Source: a virus
Direction: 5' to 3' (one strand)
IMG/VR virus record: IMGVR_UViG_3300032236_001850
Coordinates: 364,392-428,391 of that record
Length of the DNA: 64,000 nucleotides
Shown here piece by piece: positions 26,498 to 37,835 of the stretch. Below the pieces are notes generated by a model. It saw nothing but the letters and a program-made list of their open reading frames with translations, ran no database searches and was not told the origin of the DNA. Positions within the stretch are counted from its first letter, which is position 1; each line of letters opens with the position of its first letter. The translations under genes were made by a program, and so were the position numbers.

Positions 26498-26840
26498 CTT
26501 TAATGGTGGATTTGGTGGATTTCCAACTCATCCCCAATATGGTATATTAAAAAAACATATTGAAAGATCCATCCAGGATATATTTTTAAACTCATTAAGA
26601 GATCGTATGGATGATCTCGTTTATGTTTTCGATAACACTGAACAGATAGATTCCTTTATAGGAAGGATGCTTAAATATTGGGAGGGAACAGAAAATTATG
26701 AAACGTGCATGGAAATAAAAAATCTTTCCGAACCACTTAAAACTAAATGGAAGGGTAAGGGAGTTCTTGAACCTGGAGAAGCCTCCATAAAAATAAAGGA
26801 TATTTTTAAATCCACACAGAATAATGAAGGACCACTATAA
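26484..26840 (+). CDS. Small protein of a four-member paralogous family (ExYExC motif)
   Basis: 118 residues. The segment [27 protein letters not shown] matches in pattern three genes at 41184, 41487 and 41674 (a helix with Y/W, E, then YE-x-C and a following helix). Function unknown. The N-terminus [13 protein letters not shown] is glycine-rich. It ends inside the start of dnaJ (17-bp overlap), so the two are translationally coupled. Confidence 0.55.
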
Positions 26841-27867
26841 AACATTAGGATTATCTAAAAATGCAACGGCTGACGAAATAAAGAAAGCTTACAGAAAATT
26901 AGCAGTTAAATACCATCCTGATAAAACTGGTAATGATCCTGTTTTGGAGGGTAAATTCAAGGAGATTAACGAAGCATATGAAATTCTATCTGACCCCAAG
27001 AAAAGAGAAAATTACGATACTCCAAATTCTTTCGGAGGAAGTTTTAACTGGGGTGGTAGCAATCAGGGTAATCCTTTCCAGAATGCGGATTTTGGAAATT
27101 TCTGGGGTGCTGGTAGAGGTTCTGCAAATCCATTCGGTAATCAAAGGATTAGAAAGGGAAACAATATAAACGTATATGTCACTGTTTCGTTGGAAGAGAT
27201 GATGTCTGGAACTAACAAAAAAGTTAGAGTGAATCGTGCGACACAATGTTTGGATTGTAGTGGTACTGGTGCAGAATTTGGACACACTAATGATTGTGAC
27301 GAATGTCATGGTTCTGGTAAGAAGACGAGAACAGTAAATCATGCTTTTGGTGTGATGGAGTCCGTTGAGGATTGTAGAAAATGTACAGGAAGCGGAAAGG
27401 TATCTGAGCATAAATGTTCCTTTTGTAGCGGGAGTGGTACAATAAGAAAAGACGAGGAGATGGAAATAAATATACCTAAGGGATCCATATCTGGGGTTTC
27501 ATATATGGTTATGAGTAAGGGTGATTGGTTAAAATCCCCATGTAATCCCGGAGATCTTATAGTTAATATTAATGAATTTTTACATCCAGTTTATACGAGG
27601 GATGGAAATAATCTTATCCATGATGCACAGATCTCTTTCAAGGACGCCTGTCTTGGTACCGAGATAGAAATTAGCAATTTAAAGGGCTCAGCATATAGAA
27701 TCAAAATACCCGCGGGTACTTCGTCCGGCAAAATCTTCAGATTACCAGGAAAGGGTATACCTGAATTTAATGGTTTTGGTAGTGGTGATATACTAGTTAA
27801 AGCACATATAAAAATACCTACCGATTTAAACGAAGAGCAAATAAATGCTCTTGAATACTTTTCATAA
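26824..27867 (+). CDS. dnaJ: DnaJ-type co-chaperone
   Basis: 347 residues with full type I layout: J domain with YHPDKTG (HPD loop near 33-35), a G/F-rich stretch at ~66-110, four zinc motifs [24 protein letters not shown] and CSFCSGSG (~140-205), then the two beta-domains ending near 345. It should stimulate host DnaK. A complete phage-encoded DnaJ is uncommon; a role in replisome or virion protein folding is inferred. The dimerisation tail is short compared with bacterial DnaJ (~375). Confidence 0.93.
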
Positions 27868-31929: not shown

Positions 31930-33405
31930 ATGATGATATCAAAAAATGTACTGGACTTTTCCTCTTTTCTAAACGAAGCAAAATCCAATGCTGTTCAGGT
32001 AATTATGCTAATAGGAGGTGGAACCAATGAGTTCTCAAGATCCTTTGAAGCAGAGTGTAAGAAGAAAAAAATAAAGGTAACTGTATTTGACGTTGATCTT
32101 GCCGAAGTTACCAGAAATAAAACCGGTGGTGGACACACAGTAACGGAAGGCAAAAAAATTGCTTCCATAGATCCATCAAATACTGTTGTTATTGCTAGAT
32201 CTGGGTGTCTTAAGAGCACACATAATAAGGAGCTTCTTATGGAGCTTGAAAATTCTAAATATTATGTTGTGAATAGATTAAGACCGATGGAAATATGTGA
32301 AAATAAATACATCACATCAGAGTTTCTTGAAAATTTAGATTTACCCGTTCCTAGATATTCTCTTATAGCATCTGAAGATCATATAGATGCAGCAGTTAAA
32401 AAAATCGGTGGTAAATTTCCAGTTGTTATGAAACTTCTTACTGGATCTCAAGGTATTGGTGTTTCCATTATTGATTCTCCAAATTCACTTAAATCTGTTT
32501 ATCAAACAATTAAAAAACTTGACGAGAAGAGTGAGGTATTAATACAGGAAAAAATAGAATCCAAATACGATCTAAGGATACATGTTATTATTAGAGACAC
32601 AAGTATTAAAAATATAAATAACACTGATAACTTCAAGGTTATTGGTGCTATGAGAAGAAATGCAGTTGGTAAGGATTTCAGAACAAATTATTCCCTTGGT
32701 GGAACGGTATCTAATGTTAAACTTAGTAAGGAAGTAATTGAAACAGCAATTAAAGCTGCTAGTGCAGTTGGATGTAATTGGTGTGGTGTTGATATAATGA
32801 TCGACGAGAAAACTAAAAAACCTTACATATTGGAAGTTAATTCATCTCCTGGTACTGAGGGCATATCTAAAGCATTAGGTAAACCTATTGTGGATGATGT
32901 TATAAAATTTGTAATGAACAGAGAAAATTGGGTTATACCTTCATCAGAAGTTGGTTACTTAGAGGTTATGGAAATAGAGGGTCTAGGTAAGGTGATAGCT
33001 AAATTTGATACTGGTAATGGTACTCTTTGTTGTTGTTTACATGGTGATAAATTGGAGGTTAAAGGTAAAACCTTACATTTCCAAATAGGTCATAAAAAAT
33101 TCACAAAAAAAATAACTGGATATACTGATGTTTCTGGTGGTATGCACACTAAAGGAACAAAGAAAATGCCAACGGTTAAGATGGATTTAAAATTTGATGG
33201 TGCATGGACAAAAGATGTTGATGTTGCAATAGTAGATAGAACAGATAAGAGCACACCATTTTTAGTTAATAGAAAAACTATGAGACAAATGAATGTTATA
33301 GTAAATCCAAACACAAAATTCATAGTTACTGAAAATTTTGACGATAGATATAGTCAATATACATCAAAAGGAAAACCTCATGCAGGTATTGAATTTGAAA
33401 AATAA
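31930..33405 (+). CDS. RimK-like ATP-grasp ligase fused to RimB-like retropepsin domain, with capsid-targeting-like N-terminus
   Basis: 491 residues. The head MMISKNVLDFSSFLNEAKSN has F-x-x-F and L-N-E before Ala (14-16); cutting there leaves the first strand of the enzyme (VQVIMLIGGG) intact. Residues ~20-330 are a RimK-type glutamate ligase: GKFPVVMKLLTGSQGIGV, LIQEKIESKYDLRIHVI, GAMRRNAVG and metal ligands in YILEVNSSPG. Residues ~335-470 match RimB-type (DUF785) aspartic proteases: GYLEVMEIEGLG, AKFDTGNGT near 360 and LVNRKTMRQMNV. RimK adds glutamates to ribosomal protein S6 and RimB trims them. Fusing both in one phage protein with a packaging tag is striking. Start could also be the second ATG at 31933. 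Confidence 0.82.
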   Translation: MMISKNVLDFSSFLNEAKSNAVQVIMLIGGGTNEFSRSFEAECKKKKIKVTVFDVDLAEVTRNKTGGGHTVTEGKKIASIDPSNTVVIARSGCLKSTHNKELLMELENSKYYVVNRLRPMEICENKYITSEFLENLDLPVPRYSLIASEDHIDAAVKKIGGKFPVVMKLLTGSQGIGVSIIDSPNSLKSVYQTIKKLDEKSEVLIQEKIESKYDLRIHVIIRDTSIKNINNTDNFKVIGAMRRNAVGKDFRTNYSLGGTVSNVKLSKEVIETAIKAASAVGCNWCGVDIMIDEKTKKPYILEVNSSPGTEGISKALGKPIVDDVIKFVMNRENWVIPSSEVGYLEVMEIEGLGKVIAKFDTGNGTLCCCLHGDKLEVKGKTLHFQIGHKKFTKKITGYTDVSGGMHTKGTKKMPTVKMDLKFDGAWTKDVDVAIVDRTDKSTPFLVNRKTMRQMNVIVNPNTKFIVTENFDDRYSQYTSKGKPHAGIEFEK

Positions 33406-35657: not shown

Positions 35658-36119
35658 GGGCCAACACGGTATTGATTGGCAGAGTTCGTTCTTTGAGATG
35701 CAGGCAGAGTTAGTATTGGAAACTCTTAAATAACCTATACAACGCTTTAAACGGCAAAAACAACGTTTGGGAAACTATCAACGCGTTTGGTACTCCCGTA
35801 GCTAAGACTGAGCTTGCGATAGCGGCATAGTCGACCTGGTCTCACTTACCAAGGAAAGTAAAGGTGAAAATCCCGGGTGGCTCCCTCAAGACTTCGGTCG
35901 TCGTCAAGGCGTACCTTGAGCATCCAGATCCTAGAGATCTATACAGGGGGTGAAAGAAAACCGTTTTAGAAACATGTACGTAACATGTTGTTCCGACGTA
36001 TGATACCTTTAGTCGTAAAAGAAGGGAATTATTTGGTAGCATTAGAAAAAGTTACTAAGCCTGTGAATGAGTCCTTTGGCTATCTGAACAAGACGAGGGT
36101 TCGAATCCCTCTTGGTCCA
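35658..36119 (+). ncRNA. ssrA: Transfer-messenger RNA (tmRNA)
   Basis: The 5' GGGCCAA (35658-35664) pairs with TTGGTCC (36112-36118) to make a seven-pair acceptor stem with a G3-U70 pair, the alanine identity element. The T arm is GAGGG-TTCGAAT-CCCTC (36095-36111). CCA is not encoded. Between them is a tag reading frame, 35753-35830, starting GGC (GKNN) and ending LAIAA then TAG. The host-like tag would be about 9 residues (GENNYALAA type), but this one is 25. The region is clearly richer in G+C than its surroundings. A terminator follows at 36129. tmRNA with SmpB rescues stalled ribosomes and marks the peptide for proteolysis; SmpB is not in this window. Confidence 0.88.
35753..35830 (+). 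other. Predicted tmRNA tag reading frame
   Basis: Twenty-five codons plus TAG inside the tmRNA. The first residues GKNN resemble the GENN start of Bacteroidetes tags, and the last residues AIAA resemble the ALAA protease signal. The middle (VWETINAFGTPVAKTEL) is extra. The resume codon is inferred by analogy; GCT at 35744 would add three residues. Confidence 0.6.
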
Positions 36120-36128
36120 CACGGAATT

Positions 36129-36158
36129 TCGAGGATCTTAATCGATCCTCGATTTTTT
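36129..36158 (+). terminator. Rho-independent terminator of the tmRNA gene
   Basis: TCGAGGATC (36129-36137) pairs with GATCCTCGA (36144-36152), followed by TTTTTT. Confidence 0.92.
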
Positions 36159-36185
36159 ATTAAATTAACTAAATCAAATCAAAAA

Positions 36186-36566
36186 ATGGAAGCTGTAATT
36201 ATTTTATTAGTGTGTATCGTATTACCTGTTGTTATAATGGTAATAGGTATTAAGAAATCGAAAAAAGAAAGAATCGAGGAAAGAGACGAAATGTTTTATG
36301 AAGGTGACGTAAAGTTTGGAGAAAATGCTGACGGTACACCAATAGAAATCAATGACACTCCTGCTCCTATAGATGCTGTTGAAGAGGTTACTAAAATATT
36401 AACTGATGAGGTTGAAAAGATAACAAAGCCTAAAAAGAAAAAACCAGGTAGAAAGAAAAAATCTGAATTTCCTATAGAACCAGTAGCACCTAAACCAAAA
36501 TCAAAAAGAGGTAGAAAACCAAAGAATAAAGATAAGAAAGGTGGAGATCAGATGTTATTAAGCTAA
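36186..36566 (+). CDS. Membrane-anchored Lys-rich protein with AT-hook-like motifs
   Basis: 126 residues from the ATG at 36186; a longer frame runs back into the tmRNA and is not credible. One N-terminal transmembrane helix (~2-21) is followed by KKSKKERIEE, an acidic/Pro linker and a basic tail with KKKPGRKKKS and KSKRGRKPKNK. The latter resembles AT-hook minor-groove binders. Tethering DNA to the membrane is a reasonable guess, no more. A terminator follows. Confidence 0.6.
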   Translation: MEAVIILLVCIVLPVVIMVIGIKKSKKERIEERDEMFYEGDVKFGENADGTPIEINDTPAPIDAVEEVTKILTDEVEKITKPKKKKPGRKKKSEFPIEPVAPKPKSKRGRKPKNKDKKGGDQMLLS

Positions 36567-36657: not shown

Positions 36658-37098
36658 ATGAAATTTTTAATCGCATTATTATTTTTTATATCCTTTGGAT
36701 ATTCACAAAAGTCTGGTATTTGTGGTGCATCCTTTTCATATTCTAAGAAAAGTAACAGTATCCTACTAAATACCCCTATTTCATTATTTCAAACCGAGGA
36801 TGCAGATTACCACGTTAGAGTTAGGCTGAGAAGAGAAGTTCCGATTGGTGCGATTAATGGTGTTGAATATGGAAACATGATAGAACAACCATTTTTTGAA
36901 TATGATGGTTATAAAACATCCATGTTTTGGGCATTTAGCACATTAACATCAGTAAAACATAAAGTAAAAAAGAAAGGCACAATAGACACTAATTTTGAAC
37001 TATTTTACACCAAAAAAGGTGAGTATTTTATGACAATAGATAAAATGTGCTATGATAATGTAATAGAATCAAATGAGGTTTCAATAACAATAAAATAA
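36658..37098 (+). CDS. Secreted or periplasmic small protein
   Basis: 146 residues with a clear signal peptide (MKFLIALLFFISFGYSQ, cleavage probably before QKSG). The mature part is beta-rich with three Cys and no known domain. Its stop overlaps the start of the ATP-grasp gene. It resembles in style the secreted protein at 53991. An envelope-directed function (exclusion or lysis control) is possible. Confidence 0.6.
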   Translation: MKFLIALLFFISFGYSQKSGICGASFSYSKKSNSILLNTPISLFQTEDADYHVRVRLRREVPIGAINGVEYGNMIEQPFFEYDGYKTSMFWAFSTLTSVKHKVKKKGTIDTNFELFYTKKGEYFMTIDKMCYDNVIESNEVSITIK

Positions 37099-37835
37099 TG
37101 GAAGCATTTTTAGAAAAGATAAATGGCGAGTGGTTGGATGATTTTGTTTATATAGCAAAACAACCATTAATAGATATGGGATATAAAATAGTCCCGTATG
37201 ATGGTGATGATTTGGAACACACGCTAGTGATGAGAAATCCAGATCCCAACACTGATATTTGTATAGGATCTGTGCAGGGAACTGAAAGATTTTTTCAAGC
37301 CTGTGGAGTTGAGATCCCTAAATATTTGGGTTATCCTGAGCAGCTTAGAAAGTATCTTGGTAGAAAAATAGAAACAACAACCTTTGGGGAACTTGGTACA
37401 GATTTTCCATATTTTGTGAAGCCTGCTGAATCTATTAAAATGTTTACCGGTGATGTTGTGGATAATTCTAAACATCTTGAATACCTGGTTGCTTTTGATA
37501 AATGCCTTCCAGATACACCCGTTATAAAATCAGAGGTCATGGAATTTCTCTCAGAATATAGAGTTTTTGTTAGTCATGGTAAAATCTATGACGTTAAACA
37601 CTACAAAGGAACATGGAAGGAACATATTAGCTCTAATATCATTGAGTTAATGGTTAAGGATTACACAGACTGTCCTTCTGCATACACATTGGATGTGGGT
37701 CTGAATTCAAAAGGTCTAACAAAGTTAGTTGAGGTGAATGATATGTGGGCTATAGGATCTTATGGTATGGATGGAAGGGACTATGCATTATTGTGTGCCA
37801 GAAGAATGAAAGAAATATTAAAAAATTATAAATAA
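37098..37835 (+). CDS. ATP-grasp protein, R2K/DUF4343 type
   Basis: 245 residues. Features of the compact R2K-clade ATP-grasp ligases: DFPYFVKPAESIKMFTG (nucleotide Lys) near 97-113, SEVMEFLSEYRVFVSHGKIYDVKHY near 141-168, and metal ligands in LVEVNDMWAIGSYGMDG near 212-228. Such proteins join a carboxylate to an amine and are often found in phages, with unknown targets. It is unrelated in detail to the RimK-type gene at 31930, so the phage has two ATP-grasp ligases. Confidence 0.75.
   Translation: MEAFLEKINGEWLDDFVYIAKQPLIDMGYKIVPYDGDDLEHTLVMRNPDPNTDICIGSVQGTERFFQACGVEIPKYLGYPEQLRKYLGRKIETTTFGELGTDFPYFVKPAESIKMFTGDVVDNSKHLEYLVAFDKCLPDTPVIKSEVMEFLSEYRVFVSHGKIYDVKHYKGTWKEHISSNIIELMVKDYTDCPSAYTLDVGLNSKGLTKLVEVNDMWAIGSYGMDGRDYALLCARRMKEILKNYK

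Follow-up and report, generated by a model that had tools for sequence, protein, structure and literature searches.

What use could a giant phage make of a tmRNA of its own whose proteolysis tag is 25 residues long? The locus that raises this question lies in a stretch of 64,000 nucleotides, here called the window, which covers positions 364392-428391 in a virus record of 434,509 bases (coordinates of the record itself are prefixed G000:C1). An earlier note, made from the letters of the window alone, had claimed a phage-encoded tmRNA at this locus, with a G3-U70 pair in the acceptor stem, a T arm and a terminator.

The covariance search with the tmRNA model that the note had proposed as a check gave a match. 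RF00023 aligned over its full length (model positions 1-374) with positions 35658-36122 of the window, with 41.4 bits and an E value of 5.2e-15, though below the gathering score of 47, so that a default Rfam scan comes back empty. The limits given for the gene were exact, with G1 at 35658 and the discriminator A at 36119; the 3' CCA is unencoded, the sequence reading A-CAC. ARAGORN made no call on this tmRNA. Since the fold of the single sequence is indistinct from that of shuffled sequences (z −0.55), the evidence for the tmRNA is comparative. All the related phage tmRNAs match RF00023, all but one of them above the gathering score (a near relative reached 38.0 bits), and together with the full-length match this confirms the gene. 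The remaining RF00023 matches in the record look like T-arm matches, most of them inside a tRNA cluster called by ARAGORN at about 210-229 kb. This cluster comprises 31 tRNA genes (G000:C1:210278-228985), which indicates that the phage invests widely in translation. The coordinates of the locus and of the genes discussed below are collected in the table.

Table. Features of the tmRNA locus and of other genes of the phage. Positions are those of the window unless prefixed G000:C1 (record coordinates).
Feature	Position	Strand	Basis or remark
tmRNA gene (ssrA), one-piece	35658-36119	+	RF00023 full length; related tmRNAs above gathering score
Acceptor stem, 5' strand, GGGCCAA	35658-35664	+	7/7 pairs in 20 phage tmRNAs
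Pseudoknot PK1, GAGTT/AACTC, GTATTGG facing CCTATAC, one mismatch	35707-35740	+	by eye on alignment
Tag reading frame GKNNVWETINAFGTPVAKTELAIAA, stop TAG	35753-35830	+	register by homology; frame and length kept in 15 tmRNAs
Sixteen-codon insert relative to short bacterial tags, VWETINAFGTPVAKTE	35765-35812	+	core pattern in 22 viral contigs
Pseudoknot directly 3' of tag, CCTGGT/ACCAAGG, loop TCAC facing GTGA	35835-35867	+	covarying second helix
T arm, GAGGG TTCGAAT CCCTC	36095-36111	+	5/5 pairs in 19 tmRNAs read, compensatory changes
Acceptor stem, 3' strand, TTGGTCC, then discriminator A (36119)	36112-36118	+	20-tmRNA comparison
Intrinsic terminator, 9-pair stem and T run	36129-36160 (stem 36129-36152)	+	
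DnaJ-type chaperone	26824-27867		
RimK-like ATP-grasp protein	31930-33405		
R2K ATP-grasp protein	37098-37835		
ClpP, 225 aa	G000:C1 28348-29025		192 bits
Peptidyl-tRNA hydrolase 2-like compact gene, just upstream of smpB	G000:C1 51123-51374 (L009:1232-1483)		25.5 bits, short stretch
SmpB, 148 aa from the ATG used	G000:C1 51374-51820		PF01668, 159 bits
Hsp100 ATPase (ClpC-type), 708 residues	G000:C1 233854-235980		alignment with S. aureus ClpC

For the structural comparison, we used 20 phage tmRNAs: 15 of the family that shares the tag described below (the VW-tag family), two of a sister group and three of other huge phages. Each of the 20 molecules has standard pairs at all seven positions of the acceptor stem, and pair 3-70 is G-U in every one of them, while pairs 4-7 each show three or four pair types through compensatory changes. 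A tRNA-like domain with the alanine-identity pair G3-U70 and a T arm is present, and with the terminator located, the structural elements named in the earlier note proved correct. The pseudoknot PK1 is nearly invariant and hence without covariation support; in the pseudoknot that follows the tag, the second helix covaries among the relatives (TCAC/GTGA, TTCGTTT/AAACGAA, GTAAC/GTTGC). Such in-step changes in the helices argue strongly that the tmRNA has been maintained.

Two records reached through SmpB carry the same tmRNA, 92% and 87% identical, and further relatives were gathered with short patterns from the 5' domain and with a codon-degenerate pattern of the tag. The register of the tag was set by homology to Bacteroidota tmRNAs whose tags are called by ARAGORN (GKSNFAMAA, GENQFAMAA). 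The frame has 25 codons, from GGC (35753) to the stop TAG (35828-35830), and ends in ...AIAA, with a degron-like -AA. Frame, stop position and the length of 25 codons are constant in 15 related tmRNAs, which bears out a 25-residue tag with host-like ends and about 16 extra residues, as had been proposed from the single sequence. The consensus common to the related phage tags is G[KEN]xxVW[DE]xINxFGxP...[AT]xAA, 25 residues long, and the divergent member L124 (GKKANVWEAINKFGAPVTTKQAIAA) has gained one codon and lost one.

The tag-core pattern, which leaves most third codon positions free, matched 22 of 2.9 million viral contigs, and all 22 matches are tmRNAs; the same pattern had no match in 395 Bacteroidota genomes, and a stricter version of the tag pattern had no matches. 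When relatives were sought instead with patterns lying outside the tag, 14 of the 18 stretches recovered carry the VW tag, and the other four a sister form that we read as DNKSTWTFEDAMSFVGADLAVAA. All 14 keep V, W, I, N, F, G and P of the insert. Residue replacements within the tag are of a more conservative kind than chance would give (P 0.010); synonymous-rate tests of the dN/dS type were not significant, and several core codons never vary. Constraint on the tag at the protein level is thus supported but not proven, and part of the conservation could lie at the RNA level. A tblastn search of the phage records with the consensus 25-residue tag gave no match, a query so short being insensitive and run without a positive control. 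The possibility that the tag mimics a phage protein was also considered, and no convincing match was seen among the ORFs of the phage; VWDVIN..HFG, a stretch of the ORF at G000:C1 150279-151418, seems to have nothing to do with the tag.

Some observations concern the DNA next to the tmRNA gene. The gene on its 3' side (window 36186-36566), whose mechanically called ORF was over-extended into the tmRNA (to 35985), appears by eye to encode a protein that begins with a short membrane segment and ends in a lysine-rich tail, in which the stretches PGRKKK and KRGRKPK resemble AT-hooks. In four relatives (L055, L056, L088 and L092), a frame starting M[AP]RK(E/K)HKY... lies directly 3' of the tmRNA; in L055 it continues YHFIYKIVNIKSGKYYIGM and looks by eye like a GIY-YIG endonuclease, so that the tmRNA may adjoin a homing element there. 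Across the record, the motif GATATATA precedes 63 of the 458 ORFs at a distance of at most 80 bases and is absent from all control stretches taken within ORFs, which makes it a candidate phage promoter motif; AT-rich intergenic DNA may explain part of this excess.

The genes for the protein partners of a tmRNA, smpB and clpP, and for an unfoldase lie outside the window, in the rest of the record. SmpB exceeds the NCBIfam equivalog cut-offs (NF003843, 162 bits against 130; TIGR00086, 157 against 119) and keeps the YDK(R/K) tail motif. The end of the peptidyl-tRNA hydrolase 2-like gene meets the start of smpB, an order shared with the relative G001. ClpP scores 247 bits with NF011091, whose own cut-off of 361 is not reached, against 66 bits with head-maturation models; it has the nucleophile motif GMAASMG and aligns over its length with solved ClpP. 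By these sequence features, it is a true ClpP and not a ClpP-like head-maturation protease. Both AAA+ modules of the Hsp100 ATPase align with S. aureus ClpC over 640 residues. This alignment starts at ClpC residue 156, and the Clp_N family is absent from the profile results for the ATPase, so the N domain is missing and the protein, which reached no NCBIfam equivalog cut-off, is called ClpC-type only. At the position where ClpC binds ClpP, the loop reads SSGF in this phage and MGF, VGF or IGF in relatives, the usual form being hydrophobic-G-F. In known ClpC, the N domain binds adaptors.

The distribution of these genes was followed in the 15 records with the VW..IN.FG tag that measure 100 kb or more. 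Thirteen of them have SmpB as well as ClpP, and in two, which are possibly fragments (G415, G419), both are missing. In three records (G005, G414, G416), clpP and smpB stand on the same strand, six bases apart or overlapping by one, and in a fourth (G418) a single gene separates them; in this phage they are 22 kb apart. The adjacency may go back to one ancestral event or arrangement. The unfoldase was found in five of the 15 records (G000, G001, G410, G413, G418), all of them at least 348 kb long, and other records may be fragments. In the sister-tag records G409 and G411, neither SmpB nor ClpP was found.

The host is probably a member of the Bacteroidota. This assignment draws on the nearest SmpB in genomes, that of a Bacteroidetes bacterium at 46%, on the ribonucleotide reductase of the phage, which is nearest to those of Tenacibaculum phages, and on the presence in one phage protein of a Por_Secre_tail domain, which is typical of Bacteroidota. 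The protein in question (G000:C1 2362-4293, minus strand) also has a cohesin domain and has the look of a protein meant to be exported by a Bacteroidota host.

We consider it probable that the phage carries a trans-translation and proteolysis set of its own, consisting of tmRNA, SmpB, ClpP and an N-domain-less unfoldase of the ClpC type, with a tag specific to the lineage. This reading starts from what was computed directly, namely the structure of the tmRNA, the frame and conservation of the tag, the presence and co-occurrence of the genes, and the clpP-smpB neighbourhood in some relatives. Ribosome rescue is supported by the anatomy of the molecule, while the recognition step is what we infer from the sequences. 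The locus would be transcribed into a working one-piece tmRNA. During infection of the probable Bacteroidota host, this tmRNA would be charged with alanine and, in partnership with the phage SmpB, would free stalled ribosomes and add the 25-residue tag to their products. The C-terminal -AIAA would retain a Clp-type degron, and the insert VW[DE]xINxFGxP would act as an extra recognition element, most likely directing tagged products to the Clp protease of the phage or to an adaptor that the phage specifies. The insert would perhaps be recognised by the phage ClpC, which lacks the N domain, with degradation by the phage ClpCP. Points that weigh against this reading are the finding of the unfoldase in no more than five of the 15 records, the SSGF loop in this phage, the non-significant synonymous-rate tests on the tag and the distance of 22 kb between clpP and smpB here. 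The earlier suggestion that a phage tmRNA keeps ribosome rescue working is consistent with the pairing with SmpB, and the alternative suggestion, that the changed tag may redirect tagged proteins, is made more plausible by the ClpP and ClpC genes of the same phage. More tentatively, the set may form a private tag-and-destroy pathway of this giant Bacteroidota phage lineage, in which the phage tmRNA and SmpB add a phage-specific degron that is read directly by the N-domain-less ClpC with ClpP; if this is true, protein turnover at stalled ribosomes shifts from host to phage control.

The same genes could be read more modestly, with the tmRNA only supplementing host rescue, the host Clp degrading the products through -AIAA, the insert persisting as an inherited neutral spacer, and ClpP and the unfoldase serving other proteostasis roles. 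It would agree with this that large Bacteroidota phages for which tmRNA goes unmentioned commonly carry Clp and chaperone genes (PMC9723584, PMC12619734), that host-like sequence is kept at the tag ends, and that the Lak phages have short tags and yet possess SmpB and ClpP. However, a neutral spacer would not predict the seven invariant residues in all 14 VW-tag stretches, and the neighbouring smpB and clpP of three relatives speak against a simple top-up of host rescue, so that we regard this explanation as rather unlikely.

Selection on the insert as RNA, and not as peptide, would account for its invariance in another way: the tag frame could form a hairpin (GGGA...ATCAA loop TTGGT...TCCC) that assists folding or the entry of the ribosome. 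Of the ten tags folded, most are predicted to contain the inner hairpin, several codons (ATC, TTT and GGT) are invariant at the third position, and the non-significant synonymous-rate tests allow RNA-level selection. Nevertheless, the fold energies of the tag hairpin in the VW-tag family are no better than those of shuffles (not significant), synonymous changes do exist in the tag core (GTA, AAT and CCT in L124), and tag length changes by whole codons with conservative replacements; we judge such selection improbable. Even less credit is due to the idea that the phage tmRNA is a decoy that sequesters host SmpB or ribosomes and so blocks host trans-translation. A precedent could be seen in mycobacteriophage DS6A, whose tmRNA is little more than a tRNA-like domain, a similar molecule being inhibitory to tmRNA (PMC4131195); here, in contrast, the whole molecule is retained, with its tag frame, its stop codon and the pseudoknots, and SmpB is encoded by the phage itself.

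The favoured reading, a phage-borne trans-translation and proteolysis set, lends itself to experiment. In the phage literature that we examined, a phage tmRNA is entered as an isolated gene whose use is uncertain; here, the co-occurrence of tag, SmpB and ClpP, the gene neighbours in some relatives and an insert so far seen only in phages make the function directly testable. The remark in the earlier note that few phages carry a tmRNA is dated: ARAGORN reported one in 402 of 18,146 phage genomes, given as 2.3% (PMC9004378), and huge phages have already been described with both tmRNA and SmpB, among them the Lak phages, LR756501 and LR756504 (Al-Shayeb et al. 2020, PMC7162821). ARAGORN, the tool of the published huge-phage surveys (PMC7162821, PMC10747093), misses or mis-reads most tmRNAs of the VW-tag family, and phage tmRNAs are therefore probably under-counted. 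In the open-licence literature, we found neither the conserved long tag described, nor a linkage of smpB and clpP in the company of a tmRNA, nor the failure of ARAGORN on the VW-tag group, and no paper that brings together SmpB, ClpP, tmRNA and huge phages.

Among known systems, the huge phages of PMC7162821, a survey that called its tmRNAs with ARAGORN and mentions Clp zero times, are of the same broad kind, likewise carrying tmRNA and SmpB. We obtained SmpB and tmRNA matches in Lak-A2, Lak-B1 and LR756504, and a weak one in LR756501. The Lak tags have 10 residues (DDEIDFRMAA by ARAGORN), against 25 here, and the tag that we read in LR756504 has 24 residues of unlike sequence (DNVNSFEQSILNELFAPVEMAVAA). 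The weak tmRNA match in LR756501, a 735-kb phage in which SmpB is also present, lies at 718388-718731 (21 bits), with a frame read as a 33-residue tag, GDYKMNAEDMMSIPTSLTGKVATESFVEDLVLA. From these readings, a long tag may have evolved on more than one occasion. The bS21 phages (PMC9723584) and the moraphages (PMC12619734) have proteostasis genes for Clp protease and ClpA-type proteins, with tmRNA and SmpB occurring zero times in either paper. Genes for tmRNA are also carried by the mycobacteriophage Bxz1 group and Bacillus phage G (PMC4131195). The tmRNA of Melnitz is two-piece, unlike the one-piece molecule here (PMC9004378, where SmpB is mentioned once, in a general sentence on trans-translation), and those of crAss-like phages, which fit the permuted model, encode unrelated tags (GNINVVDYTGLQEAA, GNFYVTDYTRIAA). 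Bacteroidota tmRNAs resemble that of the phage in the context of the resume codon and in the ends of the tag, whereas the two that we read encode tags of nine residues, against 25 in the phage.
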